NCBI RefSeq assembly: GCF_016134045.1
Contig: NZ_CP065915.1
Location: 620,001-684,000 of the forward strand
Source: Pelagovum pacificum
GTDB taxonomy: Bacteria > Pseudomonadota > Alphaproteobacteria > Rhodobacterales > Rhodobacteraceae
Direction: 5' to 3'
Length of the DNA stretch: 64,000 bases
Every line of letters starts with the position of its first letter. Positions within the stretch are counted from its first letter, which is position 1. Made by a program: the position numbers and the translations under genes. Positions 51,070-54,293 of this stretch are shown here, in pieces. The notes under the pieces are model-generated. The model was not told where the DNA came from, did not search any database, and saw only the letters and a list, made by a program, of their open reading frames with translations.

Positions 51070-51636
51070 TCAGGCGATCCGCGTGATGCGCGCCTCGTTC
51101 GACTGCAGGAACGGCACGCCAGCCGGATCCGGCGTCGCCGCCGCTTCGGCGAGCGCGAGGCGCGTCGGAAAGGGCAGGTTCTGCTGCGCCGCTTCGTCGA
51201 TGCGGCGCCAGCCGAGTTCCGTCAGTTCCTCGTCCGCGTCGCCGAACCTGTCCGGGTCGGTGGCGAGGTCGTCGGCGTCGGCGAGAAAGAAGCGCGCGTC
51301 GTAGCGTCGGGTCGCCCCGCGCGGGGTGATCGCGCGGAAGATGAACCGCAACGGCGCACTGTGGCGCAGCGTCTGGCCGGTCTCCTCGGTCAATTCCCGC
51401 AGCGCGGCGGCGGCAACCGCGCCGGGTGGACAGTCCGAGCCGACAGCGAGGCGCGCCCGGCAAAGCGGGGTCAGCGGCACATCCGCCCCGAGGTCTACGG
51501 CATCGACAGCACCGCCGGGAAATACCAGCCGCGACGGCATGAAGACTGCACGCCCGCCGCGCCGGCCCATCAGGACCCGGTCGCCACGCCGCAGGATCAG
51601 CGTCGCGGCGTCGCGGATCGCCTCACTCTTCTCCAC
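51070..51636 (-). CDS. NUDIX hydrolase (NUDT19/CoA-type layout)
   Basis: A 188-residue Nudix protein. The helix of the Nudix box is intact at ALRELTEETGQTL (R-E-x-x-E-E-x-G), but the upstream Gly-x5-Glu half reads differently: VFPGGAVDAVDLG lies about 35 residues earlier, giving the split box seen in NUDT7/NUDT19-type and some CoA pyrophosphatase relatives. A hydrolase of nucleoside- or CoA-diphosphate compounds is expected. It overlaps the DUF983 gene by 14 bases. Confidence 0.78.
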   Translation of the reverse strand: MEKSEAIRDAATLILRRGDRVLMGRRGGRAVFMPSRLVFPGGAVDAVDLGADVPLTPLCRARLAVGSDCPPGAVAAAALRELTEETGQTLRHSAPLRFIFRAITPRGATRRYDARFFLADADDLATDPDRFGDADEELTELGWRRIDEAAQQNLPFPTRLALAEAAATPDPAGVPFLQSNEARITRIA

Positions 51637-52039
51637 CGAAGCCGTGCATCCGCCGTGCCCACTGGATGCCGACGACCAGCCCCTTGAGGCGGGGCAGCAG
51701 GAACAACGACATCGCCACGCTCGCCACCGTGAATATGGTGAACAGGACCAGCGGATCGGGCCGGAAAGCCGTGAAGACCACGTGGAGTAGCGGGGCCACG
51801 ATGTGGCCGACGACGAGGATGGTCAGATAGGCCGGACCGTCGTCGGCACGGTGATGGTACAGCGCCTCTTCGCAGACGGGGCAATGATCGACGACCTTCA
51901 GGTAGCCCTCGAACAGGGGGCCGTTGCCGCAATTGGGGCAACGCTTGCGGAACCCGCGCATCATGGCGCGCTTGGTCGGGCGGTCCTCTTCGGCGTGGGC
52001 GGGCATGGGCATGGTCATCTGTCTGGATTCGTCAAACAT
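51623..52039 (-). CDS. DUF983 zinc-ribbon membrane protein
   Basis: A 138-residue protein with an N-terminal zinc ribbon (RCPNCGNGPLF ... HCPVCEEALYHH) and two C-terminal hydrophobic spans (YLTILVVGHIVAPLLHVVF and PLVLFTIFTVASVAMSLFLL). This is the DUF983 architecture, of unknown function, often near cytochrome oxidase assembly genes in alphaproteobacteria. The ribosome site is weak for all candidate starts (52084, 52039, 52018); 52039 is a compromise. First gene of a two-gene operon with the NUDIX gene. Confidence 0.78.
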   Translation of the reverse strand: MFDESRQMTMPMPAHAEEDRPTKRAMMRGFRKRCPNCGNGPLFEGYLKVVDHCPVCEEALYHHRADDGPAYLTILVVGHIVAPLLHVVFTAFRPDPLVLFTIFTVASVAMSLFLLPRLKGLVVGIQWARRMHGFGGEE

Positions 52040-52251
52040 CGGGTGTCGCGTCCTCGGTTCACGAACTTTGAACGTGGGCCGCATGGGCCGGTCTGAAAAG
52101 GGGACAGAAGGTCATAGGGGCGGAATGTCGCAAATTCCGGCCGAAAGAAATTTCCTTCGCGAGGCGCGACGGAAGCGTCGCGGGCGCCCGTTGTAGGGGA
52201 TGTACCGGGCAGGAAGGACCAAGTCCGGGACCACAGAGCAAAGGAAGAACA

Positions 52252-52782
52252 ATGACCTACAAGACAGTCCTTCTGTTGGTGGCGATCGGCGCAGGCTACG
52301 GTGTGACGGCCGCGAACGCGCAGGGCCTTGGACCGATGGGCATGGAGCCTCCAACGTTCGAGTCGCTCGACACGGATGGAGATGGCCAGTTGAGCGAGGC
52401 CGAACTCCGCGCCCCGGTGCAGGAGCGCTTCGATGCCGCCGACACTGATGGTGACGGCACCCTGACCGCCGAGGAAATGACGGCAGCCGCGGAAGCGATG
52501 CGCGCCGAGCGGCAGCAACAGATGGTCGCGCGCATGATCTCGCGGCTCGATGCCAACGGGGACGGGGTGCTCTCCGTCGAGGAGTTCCGGATGCCGGCGC
52601 CGCGCCCGACGATGTTCTCCCGTCTCGATACGGATGAGAACGGGGCGATCTCGCCAGCGGAATTCGAGCAGGCGCGGGAGCGGATGCACGCCTTCGCGGA
52701 ACGTCGCGGTCCGGGTGGTCCCGGTCGCGACCACGGCGGACTGAGGGACGGGCACGGCAACGGCCCGCGCTTCTTCCGCTGA
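52252..52782 (+). CDS. Secreted four-EF-hand protein
   Basis: A 176-residue exported protein. Signal peptide: YKTVLLLVAIGAGYGVTAANA. The mature part holds four canonical 12-residue EF-hand loops beginning DTDGDGQLSEAE, DTDGDGTLTAEE, DANGDGVLSVEE and DTDENGAISPAE, each with acidic residues at positions 1, 3, 5 and 12, so four Ca2+ sites are plausible. A flexible Gly/Arg/His tail ends the protein. It precedes a CnrYXH-like sigma factor system and may be its target or its Ca2+ input. Strong GC hairpin follows its stop. Confidence 0.88.
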   Translation: MTYKTVLLLVAIGAGYGVTAANAQGLGPMGMEPPTFESLDTDGDGQLSEAELRAPVQERFDAADTDGDGTLTAEEMTAAAEAMRAERQQQMVARMISRLDANGDGVLSVEEFRMPAPRPTMFSRLDTDENGAISPAEFEQARERMHAFAERRGPGGPGRDHGGLRDGHGNGPRFFR

Positions 52783-52789
52783 CCCCCCG

Positions 52790-52818
52790 GGGCCCGGCGG
52801 TGCCCCTCCGCCGGGCCC
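52790..52818 (+). terminator. GC hairpin between EF-hand gene and ECF sigma gene
   Basis: GGGCCCGGCGG (52790-52800) pairs perfectly with CCGCCGGGCCC (52808-52818); loop TGCCCCT. No T-run follows, so read-through to the sigma gene at a lower level is possible. Confidence 0.6.
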
Positions 52819-52854
52819 GATTGCAGGAAGCGCCTCATGTGTCTAATTCGCTGA

Positions 52855-53457
52855 GTGTTGTACCAGGGTTCGATAGAAGCTGTGGACGGAGCCGAGGACG
52901 AAGACGCGGCGCTGCTGGCGGCCTATGCCTCGGGCGACCTTTCGGCCGCCCGCGTCCTGATGGCACGCCTTGCACCCCGGTCGCTGACACAGGCGAACCG
53001 GATGCTCGGCGACCGGTCGGAGGCCGAGGACATCGTGCAGGAGGCGATGGTCCGGCTCTGGCGGCAGGCGCCGGACTGGCGCACGGGGGAGGCGAAGGTC
53101 TCTACCTGGCTTTACCGGGTGGTTGCCAATCTCTGCACCGACCGGCTCCGATCCCGGCGGCGGCGCGACGTGAGTATCGACGCGGTGGCGGAGCCCGAAA
53201 GCGGGCGACCCTCAGTTGCGGAGGATCTGCAGGCGGAAGCCCGGATGGCGGCGCTGCGCAACGCGCTCGCCGATCTGCCGGAGCGGCAGGCGCAGGCCGT
53301 GGCGCTGAGGCATCTCGAGGGACTGTCCAACCCCGAGATCGCAGGGATCATGGACATCGGAATCGAGGCGGTCGAAAGTCTGACCGCCCGCGGAAAACGG
53401 ACGCTCGCGGCGATCCTCGCCGGACGCAAGGATGAACTGGGGTTCACCGATGACTGA
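52855..53457 (+). CDS. ECF-family RNA polymerase sigma factor
   Basis: A 200-residue extracytoplasmic-function sigma factor. Region 2 spans about residues 35-105 (LAPRSLTQANRMLGDRSEAE, DIVQEAMVRLWRQAPDW, STWLYRVVANLCTDRLR) and region 4 about 130-185 (LADLPERQAQAVALRHLEGL, IAGIMDIGIEAVESLTARGK). Start codon is uncertain: GTG 52855 has no clear ribosome site and GTG 52882 is an alternative. It overlaps the next gene by eight bases, as is usual for sigma and anti-sigma pairs. Confidence 0.88.
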   Translation: MLYQGSIEAVDGAEDEDAALLAAYASGDLSAARVLMARLAPRSLTQANRMLGDRSEAEDIVQEAMVRLWRQAPDWRTGEAKVSTWLYRVVANLCTDRLRSRRRRDVSIDAVAEPESGRPSVAEDLQAEARMAALRNALADLPERQAQAVALRHLEGLSNPEIAGIMDIGIEAVESLTARGKRTLAAILAGRKDELGFTDD

Positions 53458-53800
53458 GCCTTTGAACGACCGACAGCTCGACGCGCTGTTCGACACGACG
53501 CGGGAGCGCGGAACGATGGATGCCGGCGAGGCCTTCCTCGCCCGGCTGAGCGCGGATGCCGCCGCGGAGATGCCGCGCCGAATGGAAGCACCGCCGTCGC
53601 GGGGCGCGATCGGCACGATCTGGGCCGGCATCGGTGGCTGGGCGGGGTTTGGCGGTCTGGCCGCCGCGACTGTCGCGGGGCTCTGGATCGGGATCGCGTC
53701 CCCGGCGGGTATCGCGGACTTCACGGACAGCGTGCTTGGCGAAACGATGACCGTGTCGTTCGATCCGACGGCGGCGCTCTTCGAGACGGAGGAGGGCTGA
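53450..53800 (+). CDS. Probable membrane anti-sigma factor (CnrY-like layout)
   Basis: A 116-residue protein with a cytoplasmic N-terminus of about 55 residues (LNDRQLDALFDTTRERGTMD, then EAFLARLSADAAAEMPRR), one hydrophobic span (GGLAAATVAGLWIGIASPAG) and a short periplasmic tail (TMTVSFDPTAALFETEEG). No zinc-anti-sigma (HxxxCxxC) motif is present. The layout and place between an ECF sigma and a CnrX/Spy-like protein match CnrY. The ATG at 53450 lies inside the end of the sigma gene. Confidence 0.72.
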   Translation: MTEPLNDRQLDALFDTTRERGTMDAGEAFLARLSADAAAEMPRRMEAPPSRGAIGTIWAGIGGWAGFGGLAAATVAGLWIGIASPAGIADFTDSVLGETMTVSFDPTAALFETEEG

Positions 53801-53801
53801 C

Positions 53802-54293
53802 ATGTCAATGCCGCCCCCCCGCAGGCCCAACCGCTTCGTCCGGGTGATCTTCGTGCTGTCGCTCGCGCTGAACCTCCTCGTCGTCGGCGTGATCGTCGGG
53901 CGTCTCGTCGGTGGGCCGAAGTTCGGCCCGCCCCGGTTCGACATGGCGCTCGGCCCCGTCGGGCAGGCGTTCGAACCGGCCGACCGCCGTGCGATCCTTC
54001 AGGGGCTGCGCGCGCGCGACGATCTGGAGCTGCCGTCGCGGCGCGACTTCCGGCAATTCAGCGGGGAGCTTCTGGTCCTGCTGCGGGCCGAGCCCTTCGA
54101 CGAAGCGGCGCTCATCGAGGCGATGGAACGCCAGCGTCGCCGCTTCTCCGGCCTATTCGAGGCCGTTCAGACCGAGACGGTGGAGTTCATCGCCGGGCTG
54201 AACCCGGACGAGCGCGCGGCCTTCGCCGACCGGCTGGAGCAGTCGATGGACCGTCGCGGGCCGGGCAAGCCGGACGGCGCGCGCGGCGACTGA
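53802..54293 (+). CDS. Periplasmic heavy-metal-sensor/Spy-like (CnrX type) protein
   Basis: A 163-residue protein anchored by one N-terminal span (VRVIFVLSLALNLLVVGVIV). The periplasmic part is an all-helical hairpin resembling the CnrX/ZraP/Spy group (FEPADRRAILQGLRARDDLE, FDEAALIEAMERQRRRFSGL, LNPDERAAFADRLEQSM). Unlike CnrX and ZraP it contains no His and no Cys at all, so ordinary Ni/Co/Zn ligands are missing. It may sense unfolded protein, another metal via acidic residues, or a partner protein. Good GGAGG seven bases before ATG 53802. Confidence 0.78.
   Translation: MSMPPPRRPNRFVRVIFVLSLALNLLVVGVIVGRLVGGPKFGPPRFDMALGPVGQAFEPADRRAILQGLRARDDLELPSRRDFRQFSGELLVLLRAEPFDEAALIEAMERQRRRFSGLFEAVQTETVEFIAGLNPDERAAFADRLEQSMDRRGPGKPDGARGD

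Follow-up and report, generated by a model that had tools for sequence, protein, structure and literature searches.

A conserved EF-hand and ECF sigma factor cluster of Alphaproteobacteria with a predicted CnrYXH-like membrane module and a possible calcium input

In a 64,000-nucleotide stretch of the Pelagovum pacificum genome (contig NZ_CP065915.1, positions 620,001 to 684,000; the whole stretch is referred to below as the window), four consecutive genes encode an EF-hand protein, an extracytoplasmic function (ECF) sigma factor, a short protein and a PF13801 protein, referred to as the sensor. We find that this cluster is real and widely conserved, that the genes of its sigma factor, short protein and sensor are found together across the class Alphaproteobacteria, and that a new promoter element, GCGACGGAA-N14-CGTT, marks its head. 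Little is known of how bacteria turn calcium outside the cell into a transcriptional response, and we propose that the cluster is a self-amplifying relay in which the sensor and the short protein hold the sigma factor while the EF-hand protein reports periplasmic calcium to the sensor. We put the probability of this reading at about 0.48, that is, at slightly less than even odds.

A conserved four-gene cluster and its promoter element

All four genes lie on the forward strand. The EF-hand gene (52252-52782, 176 amino acids) is followed by the sigma factor gene (52855-53457, 200 amino acids when read from a GTG, the true start being uncertain), the gene of the short protein, a predicted anti-sigma factor (53450-53800, 116 amino acids, or 122 from an alternative start at 53432) and the predicted sensor gene (53802-54293, 163 amino acids). 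Open reading frames (ORFs), Pfam and NCBIfam bear out the gene order given in the original prediction, which had also described the genes as overlapping; this is true of the sigma factor and short protein genes only, as the short protein and sensor genes stand 1 base apart and the EF-hand and sigma factor genes 72 bases apart. The sigma factor carries the Pfam domains Sigma70_r2 and Sigma70_r4_2 and belongs to the PRK12524/NF009176 subfamily (283.3 bits against a curated NCBIfam cut-off of 264).

Conservation was assessed in 36 loci of Rhodobacteraceae and close kin (35 uncut), in a class-wide set and in 41 more distant ECF loci that served as controls (39 uncut). The class-wide set came from 385 genomes searched with NF009176, at least 126 of which gave a match at E 1e-36 or better; it holds 137 matches besides the window's own (128 uncut), four of them Rhodobacteraceae again, with both EF-hand and sensor genes. 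Cut loci (1 of 36, 9 of 137 and 2 of 41) were dropped. The Rhodobacteraceae and control loci, together with three intermediate loci kept outside both sets (L040-L042, all with the sensor gene and L042 with the EF-hand gene), were drawn from 80 of 101 relatives. Loci were counted as EF-positive when at least two EF loops were matched by regular expression, and L028, which has a one-loop EF protein, was thus counted as EF-negative, as were L015 and L034.

Among uncut loci, a PF13801 gene follows the sigma factor gene in 35/35 Rhodobacteraceae and 119/128 class-wide loci as compared with 0/39 other ECF loci, the hidden Markov model (HMM) for this search having been built from the Rhodobacteraceae rows and L040-L042, so that it could miss more distant members of PF13801 at the control loci. 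An EF-hand gene precedes the sigma factor gene in 32/35, 63/128 and 0/39 loci, respectively, and 58 of the 128 class-wide loci have both genes. In 1.21 Mb of Rhodobacteraceae and class-wide loci, 99 ORFs with at least two EF loops occupy the slot before the sigma factor gene and only 6 lie elsewhere. The four-gene grouping is not a matter of chance. Lack of co-conservation between the EF-hand gene and the module had been named beforehand as one outcome that would overturn the original prediction; the two are co-conserved, with the qualification that the EF-hand gene is missing from half of the class-wide clusters.

The predicted ECF-type promoter core that heads the cluster lies at 52166-52192 on the forward strand and reads GCGACGGAAGCGTCGCGGGCGCCCGTT. 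The pattern scored in 31 of 35 rows (window plus 34 relatives), each time with a 14-base spacer; of the four remaining rows, L009, L012 and L023 carry variants, and L036 has an exact site that the pattern misread. A weight matrix built from 34 sites was then applied to class-wide loci uncut upstream (67 EF-positive and 67 EF-negative): the 99th percentile of shuffled sequences was reached or exceeded at 34/67 EF-positive and 15/67 EF-negative loci, and at 0/41 other ECF loci. At the EF-positive loci that pass, the best site lies about 630-1100 bases before a point near the sigma factor start, i.e. before the EF-hand gene, and at the EF-negative loci that pass, about 255 bases at most separate it from that point. 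Likewise, GACGGnn-N14-CGT occurs within the 400 bases that lead up to the first EF loop in 69 of 99 EF-positive loci versus 9 of 916 control pieces. The element thus precedes whichever gene heads the cluster, EF-hand or sigma factor; read most simply, this means that the cluster is transcribed by its own sigma factor, with the EF-hand gene, where present, as the first target. At the class-wide loci that gave no match, the element either is missing or has diverged.

The element could instead be read by a general stress sigma factor of the EcfG/SigT type, which would make the cluster just one target among others. Its -35 GGAA and -10 CGTT resemble EcfG promoters; moreover, in 120 genomes of the family the element occurs 174 times as compared with 43 for the reversed control, a real excess (36 genomes have no match), and of 30 such sites that were read, 14 lie before EF-hand genes and 16 do not. 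The fixed 14-base spacer and the extended GCGAC -35 argue the other way, EcfG promoters having a longer spacer, as does the fact that the element follows the head gene in EF-positive and EF-negative loci alike while no other ECF locus reaches the matrix threshold. P. pacificum itself has one exact N14 site, at the cluster, and a broad regulon was not found in this genome: two other matches, with N15 and N16 spacers, lie inside long ORFs of the opposite strand, and with one mismatch allowed there are 10 matches, including the cluster's own, against 11 for the reversed control. In Caulobacter vibrioides, whose EF-hand gene cabp stands before the ECF gene sigV, both genes respond to SigT, but SigV is the main activator of the cabp promoter (PMC13171946, May 2026). 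Taken together, we consider a general stress sigma factor quite improbable as the reader of the element.

Some of the 30 sites stand before other kinds of genes, named here from sequence. At L096, L117 and L118 (3 of the 30 sites) the element precedes genes resembling HlyD-type membrane fusion proteins, possibly further targets of the same or a related sigma factor, and at L114 it precedes an rpoH-like heat-shock sigma factor gene and could join two responses.

A GC-rich hairpin (52790-52818, forward strand) lies inside the 72-base gap between the EF-hand and sigma factor genes (52783-52854), with a minimum free energy of -34.8 and a z-score of -1.9. Folding of this gap has a mean z of -2.4 over 33 rows (window plus 32 Rhodobacteraceae), 19 of them below -2, as compared with a mean of -0.13 and 1 of 36 below -2 for a control stretch after the sigma factor stop codon; class-wide the hairpin is weaker (mean z -0.97 in 67 loci). 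No T-tract terminator was found in the gap, and an Rfam search returned no family match. The hairpin is possibly a partial transcription stop or a stabiliser of the mRNA, and as such may set the ratios of the proteins.

On its 5' side the cluster is flanked by a DUF983 gene (51623-52084, reverse strand) and on its 3' side by a GGDEF gene (from 54296 onwards, reverse strand), the six nearest ORFs encoding, by Pfam, an EamA transporter, NUDIX, DUF983, GGDEF, DUF3572 and HAD proteins. The ten-gene order that includes these flanks is repeated on a plasmid of Phaeobacter sp. G2, annotated there as DMT transporter, NUDIX, DUF983, EF-hand, sigma factor, hypothetical protein, 'periplasmic heavy metal sensor', diguanylate cyclase, DUF3572 and HAD; the window flanks were assigned by Pfam. 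Relatives of the sigma factor with 44-49% identity (H2-H8) are also found on plasmid replicons of Burkholderia, Caballeronia, Ensifer, Rhizobium and Neorhizobium.

The EF-hand protein and the predicted membrane partners

Pfam places four EF-hand stretches in the 176-residue EF-hand protein. Their loops (residues 40-51, 64-75, 100-111 and 126-137) all have D at position 1, D or N at positions 3 and 5, G at 6, S or T at 9 and E at 12, which makes them canonical Ca2+ loops; the four such loops noted at the outset are thus confirmed residue by residue. The protein is likely secreted, judging from a putative Sec signal peptide that we read from the sequence at about residues 1-24. In L166, L172, L176 and L183, which share one genus code, the EF-hand gene is itself preceded by a second small EF-hand ORF (121-125 amino acids, two loops).

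If the loops bound lanthanides and not calcium, the cluster would sense rare earths. The NCBIfam lanmodulin model NF053806 does match the EF-hand protein weakly, at 47.5 bits, and the 12-residue gap between loops 1 and 2 is compact; like lanmodulin, the protein has several EF hands and is likely secreted. The match falls far short of the model's cut-off of 135, and the following two gaps, of 24 and 14 residues, depart from the 12-13 residues that separate adjacent EF hands in lanmodulin. Lanmodulins are recognised by a Pro in the second position of one or more EF loops (PMC10232371; criteria also drawn from PMC11845868), and among 399 loops (4 in the window, 125 in Rhodobacteraceae, 270 class-wide) none has it, while Asp at position 9 is found in 28. 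With calcium-type loops and a gene tied to an ECF cluster, the protein differs from lanmodulin, and we regard lanthanide sensing as very improbable indeed.

The short protein matches no Pfam family, nor did any of six class-wide anti-sigma candidates that were scanned reach a Pfam cut-off. An AlphaFold2 model from 34 sequences (mean pLDDT, predicted local distance difference test, 77.5) has two N-terminal helices (residues 7-20 and 27-40), one membrane helix (63-82) and a short periplasmic tail; by position and architecture, we predict a one-span anti-sigma factor. Within the membrane helix, the alignment places small residues at every fourth position (G69, A73, G77 and G81), and this zipper recurs in 30/35 Rhodobacteraceae and 70/122 class-wide sequences (shuffled means 4.3 and 5.1). 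A profile of 34 relatives did not find the CnrY chain among solved structures, such short domains diverging fast. In loci from outside Rhodobacteraceae, the short protein has a greater length (median 155 as compared with 124 amino acids) and often carries a YGADPxRWP-like motif, e.g. at L150:2531-2986 (reverse strand) and L163:3558-4004 (forward strand).

The sensor scores 63.7 bits against PF13801 (Metal_resist; gathering cut-off 29.2) and is the single protein of its genome over that cut-off; among the control genomes, three have one (C. vibrioides, E. coli and Synechococcus). Modelled from 38 sequences (mean pLDDT 86.1), it has a membrane helix at residues 11-35 and a helical periplasmic domain, and is predicted to be a membrane-anchored periplasmic protein with a CnrX/CpxP/Spy-like fold. 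Foldseek names CpxP, Spy, CnrX and ZraP as the nearest solved folds, at scores too low for proof and with CpxP and Spy ahead of CnrX; the VIA-align rows re-check these Foldseek matches and cover no other families. Searched against solved structures, the sensor sequence gave one unrelated match and no CnrX, and its profile gave weak matches, first to an EF-hand protein and then to Spy and CpxP, again without CnrX. A Ser in the membrane helix (S20 in the window) is found in 35/35 Rhodobacteraceae and 120/125 class-wide sensors, and an Asn four residues away (N24) in 35/35 and 123/125, both being near-invariant in class-wide rows with and without the EF-hand gene. This Ser/Asn pair and the small-residue zipper of the short protein are newly seen conserved membrane features.

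As had been pointed out before, the sensor of the window contains neither His nor Cys in its 163 residues. The same is true of the sensor core in 14/35 Rhodobacteraceae and 10/125 class-wide loci. That the EF-hand protein replaces metal-binding histidines of the sensor was considered and rejected: the core holds a mean of 2.95 His/Cys at EF-positive loci (n=60) and 2.74 at EF-negative ones (n=65; p=0.50), and this equality also weakens the earlier suggestion that a His/Cys-free sensor marks a shift away from metal. No conserved His site is seen in the sensor alignment, an observation that does not in itself indicate calcium sensing.

These data bear on whether the cluster is a heavy-metal sensor of the CnrYXH kind that detects Ni, Co, Cu or Zn through other ligands. 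Such a role would fit the three-part logic shared with CnrYXH, the PF13801 membership of all 38 aligned sensors (E 0.001 or better) and the presence of as many as 6 His in the core of the sensor in some Rhodobacteraceae relatives. It fits poorly with the His- and Cys-free sensor of the window, with an alignment whose most His-rich column has His in just 47 of 160 rows, and with the flanks: no metal efflux gene was detected by Pfam among the six nearest flanking ORFs, nor in the annotated Phaeobacter synteny. We hold a heavy-metal role to be improbable, and proteins annotated as 'periplasmic heavy metal sensor' may respond to something other than heavy metals. At L216, L217, L233, L234 and L236, the EF-hand and sigma factor genes stand without a downstream sensor that the HMM detects; perhaps a different sensor serves there.

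A proposed calcium relay

We propose that the EF-hand protein is likely the calcium-responsive part of an autoregulated CnrYXH-like relay. The short protein would bind the sigma factor through its two N-terminal helices, as CnrY does, and together with the sensor would keep it at the membrane. The small-residue membrane helix of the short protein would pack on the sensor membrane helix with its Ser and Asn and so carry the signal. Loss of calcium from the EF-hand protein, or loss of the protein itself, would change the sensor and release the sigma factor, which would transcribe the EF-hand gene first and then, through the hairpin and at a lower level, its own regulators; the hairpin would in this way allow more of the EF-hand protein than of the regulators to be produced. 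Since the Ser/Asn pair is kept whether or not a locus has an EF-hand gene, the product of that gene would read the periplasm as an optional addition. The calcium link of the module is independently supported by Caulobacter, where the SigV-dependent cabp promoter, which is of the same form, is induced by EGTA (PMC13171946).

Several observations weigh against the calcium relay. The number of His in the sensor does not depend on whether the EF-hand gene is present, and half of the class-wide clusters have the core without that gene. On a FastTree tree of 171 sigma factors (100 EF-positive and 71 EF-negative), the EF label changes at least 21 times (shuffled mean 54.5; 7 changes are forced by starred branches), so that the EF-hand gene comes and goes. 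In Caulobacter, excess Ca2+ also raised cabp promoter activity, and the data on whether CaBP is needed for induction by EGTA are conflicting (PMC13171946).

The main rival to the relay holds that the core senses envelope damage or misfolded periplasmic proteins in the manner of CpxP and Spy, and that the EF-hand protein is only the main output, which would buffer calcium or act as a stabiliser. That CpxP and Spy, ahead of CnrX, are the best structural neighbours of the sensor speaks for this rival, as do the loci in which the core stands without an EF-hand gene and the place of that gene as promoter-proximal target; furthermore, acid too induces the Caulobacter promoter (PMC13171946). We judge envelope-stress sensing to be rather unlikely.

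A wider form of the calcium relay, which we put forward as doubtful, is a widespread alphaproteobacterial calcium pathway in which a CnrX-type receptor and an anti-sigma factor would form a switch coupled through their membrane helices, and a secreted EF-hand protein would be a detachable calcium-reading subunit, repeatedly gained and lost and boosted by the sigma factor. If true, this would be a calmodulin-like input to bacterial transcription across the inner membrane.

Relation to known systems

CpxP, Spy and ZraP provide the nearest folds of the sensor domain; they are soluble periplasmic proteins that belong to two-component systems or act as chaperones, and are not anchored anti-sigma partners. 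In the RpoE8 operon of Azospirillum brasilense, as in the window, a sigma factor gene is followed by genes for a hypothetical protein and a 'periplasmic heavy metal sensor', in this order (PMC12826043). The RpoE8 operon differs in that it is known as upregulated on overexpression of RpoE6, and the main text of the paper does not contain the term 'EF-hand' (PMC12826043).

The cluster shares with CnrYXH and NccYXH of Cupriavidus metallidurans an ECF sigma factor, a short one-span anti-sigma factor and an anchored periplasmic sensor, the span, the anchor and the anti-sigma role being predictions in the window; in this sense the CnrYXH-like architecture proposed at the outset is borne out by an ECF sigma factor beside a predicted one-span protein and an anchored PF13801 protein. 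In CnrYXH the sigma factor gene comes last, whereas in the window it stands ahead of its partners, and the window cluster lacks the sensor histidines and adjacent metal efflux genes and has an additional EF-hand gene. The two short helices predicted before the span of the short protein recall CnrY, whose first helix binds sigma-4 and whose second helix binds sigma-2 (PMC7406223); binding of cobalt or nickel by CnrX is believed to cause CnrY to release CnrH (PMC4598750). The cluster would thus work like CnrYXH, but we do not file it as a member, since it has neither a His-based metal site nor metal efflux genes as neighbours.

Another of the closest known systems is the CaBP-SigV pair of C. vibrioides, with which the cluster shares an EF-hand gene directly before an ECF sigma factor gene, the promoter spacing, a periplasmic EF-hand protein (predicted here) and, in Caulobacter, activation by the sigma factor. 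The cabp promoter mapped by 5' rapid amplification of cDNA ends (5'RACE) has a -35 GGAAA, 13 nucleotides and CGTTCA (PMC13171946), which is equivalent to GGAA-N14-CGTT, the spacing seen at the window cluster. The published forward primer for cabp ends in GCGCGACGGA (PMC13171946), and this end, if the primer abuts the -35, fits the extended -35 of our element. Among 14 control genomes, C. vibrioides is the only one with a match to the sigma subfamily (E 1e-36 or better, under the NF009176 cut-off). The two proteins differ in that Caulobacter CaBP has three EF motifs, one with Arg at position 6 (PMC13171946), and the window protein has four canonical ones. The published Caulobacter primers have no exact match in the 137 class-wide loci, nine of which match with 1-2 mismatches, mostly to primers in EF-loop-coding sequence, and promoter-pattern searches gave no EF-hand locus in 10 genomes from the family of G278, in 40 from the order of G128 or in 385 from the class.

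The cluster had been presented as an undescribed signalling system. Its EF-hand and sigma factor pair is in fact published for Caulobacter, and the claim of novelty holds for the four-part cluster, which we did not find in the open-licence PubMed Central literature. The authors of the Caulobacter study describe two separate promoters and draw the membrane link as a question mark (PMC13171946). Our cluster probably belongs with CaBP-SigV, with membrane parts added, the Caulobacter side of this comparison being taken from the published description, and it names candidates for that link: a predicted one-span anti-sigma factor and a predicted PF13801 sensor. With these candidate proteins, their class-wide grouping with the sigma factor and a sharp promoter element, the missing step in Caulobacter becomes directly testable.

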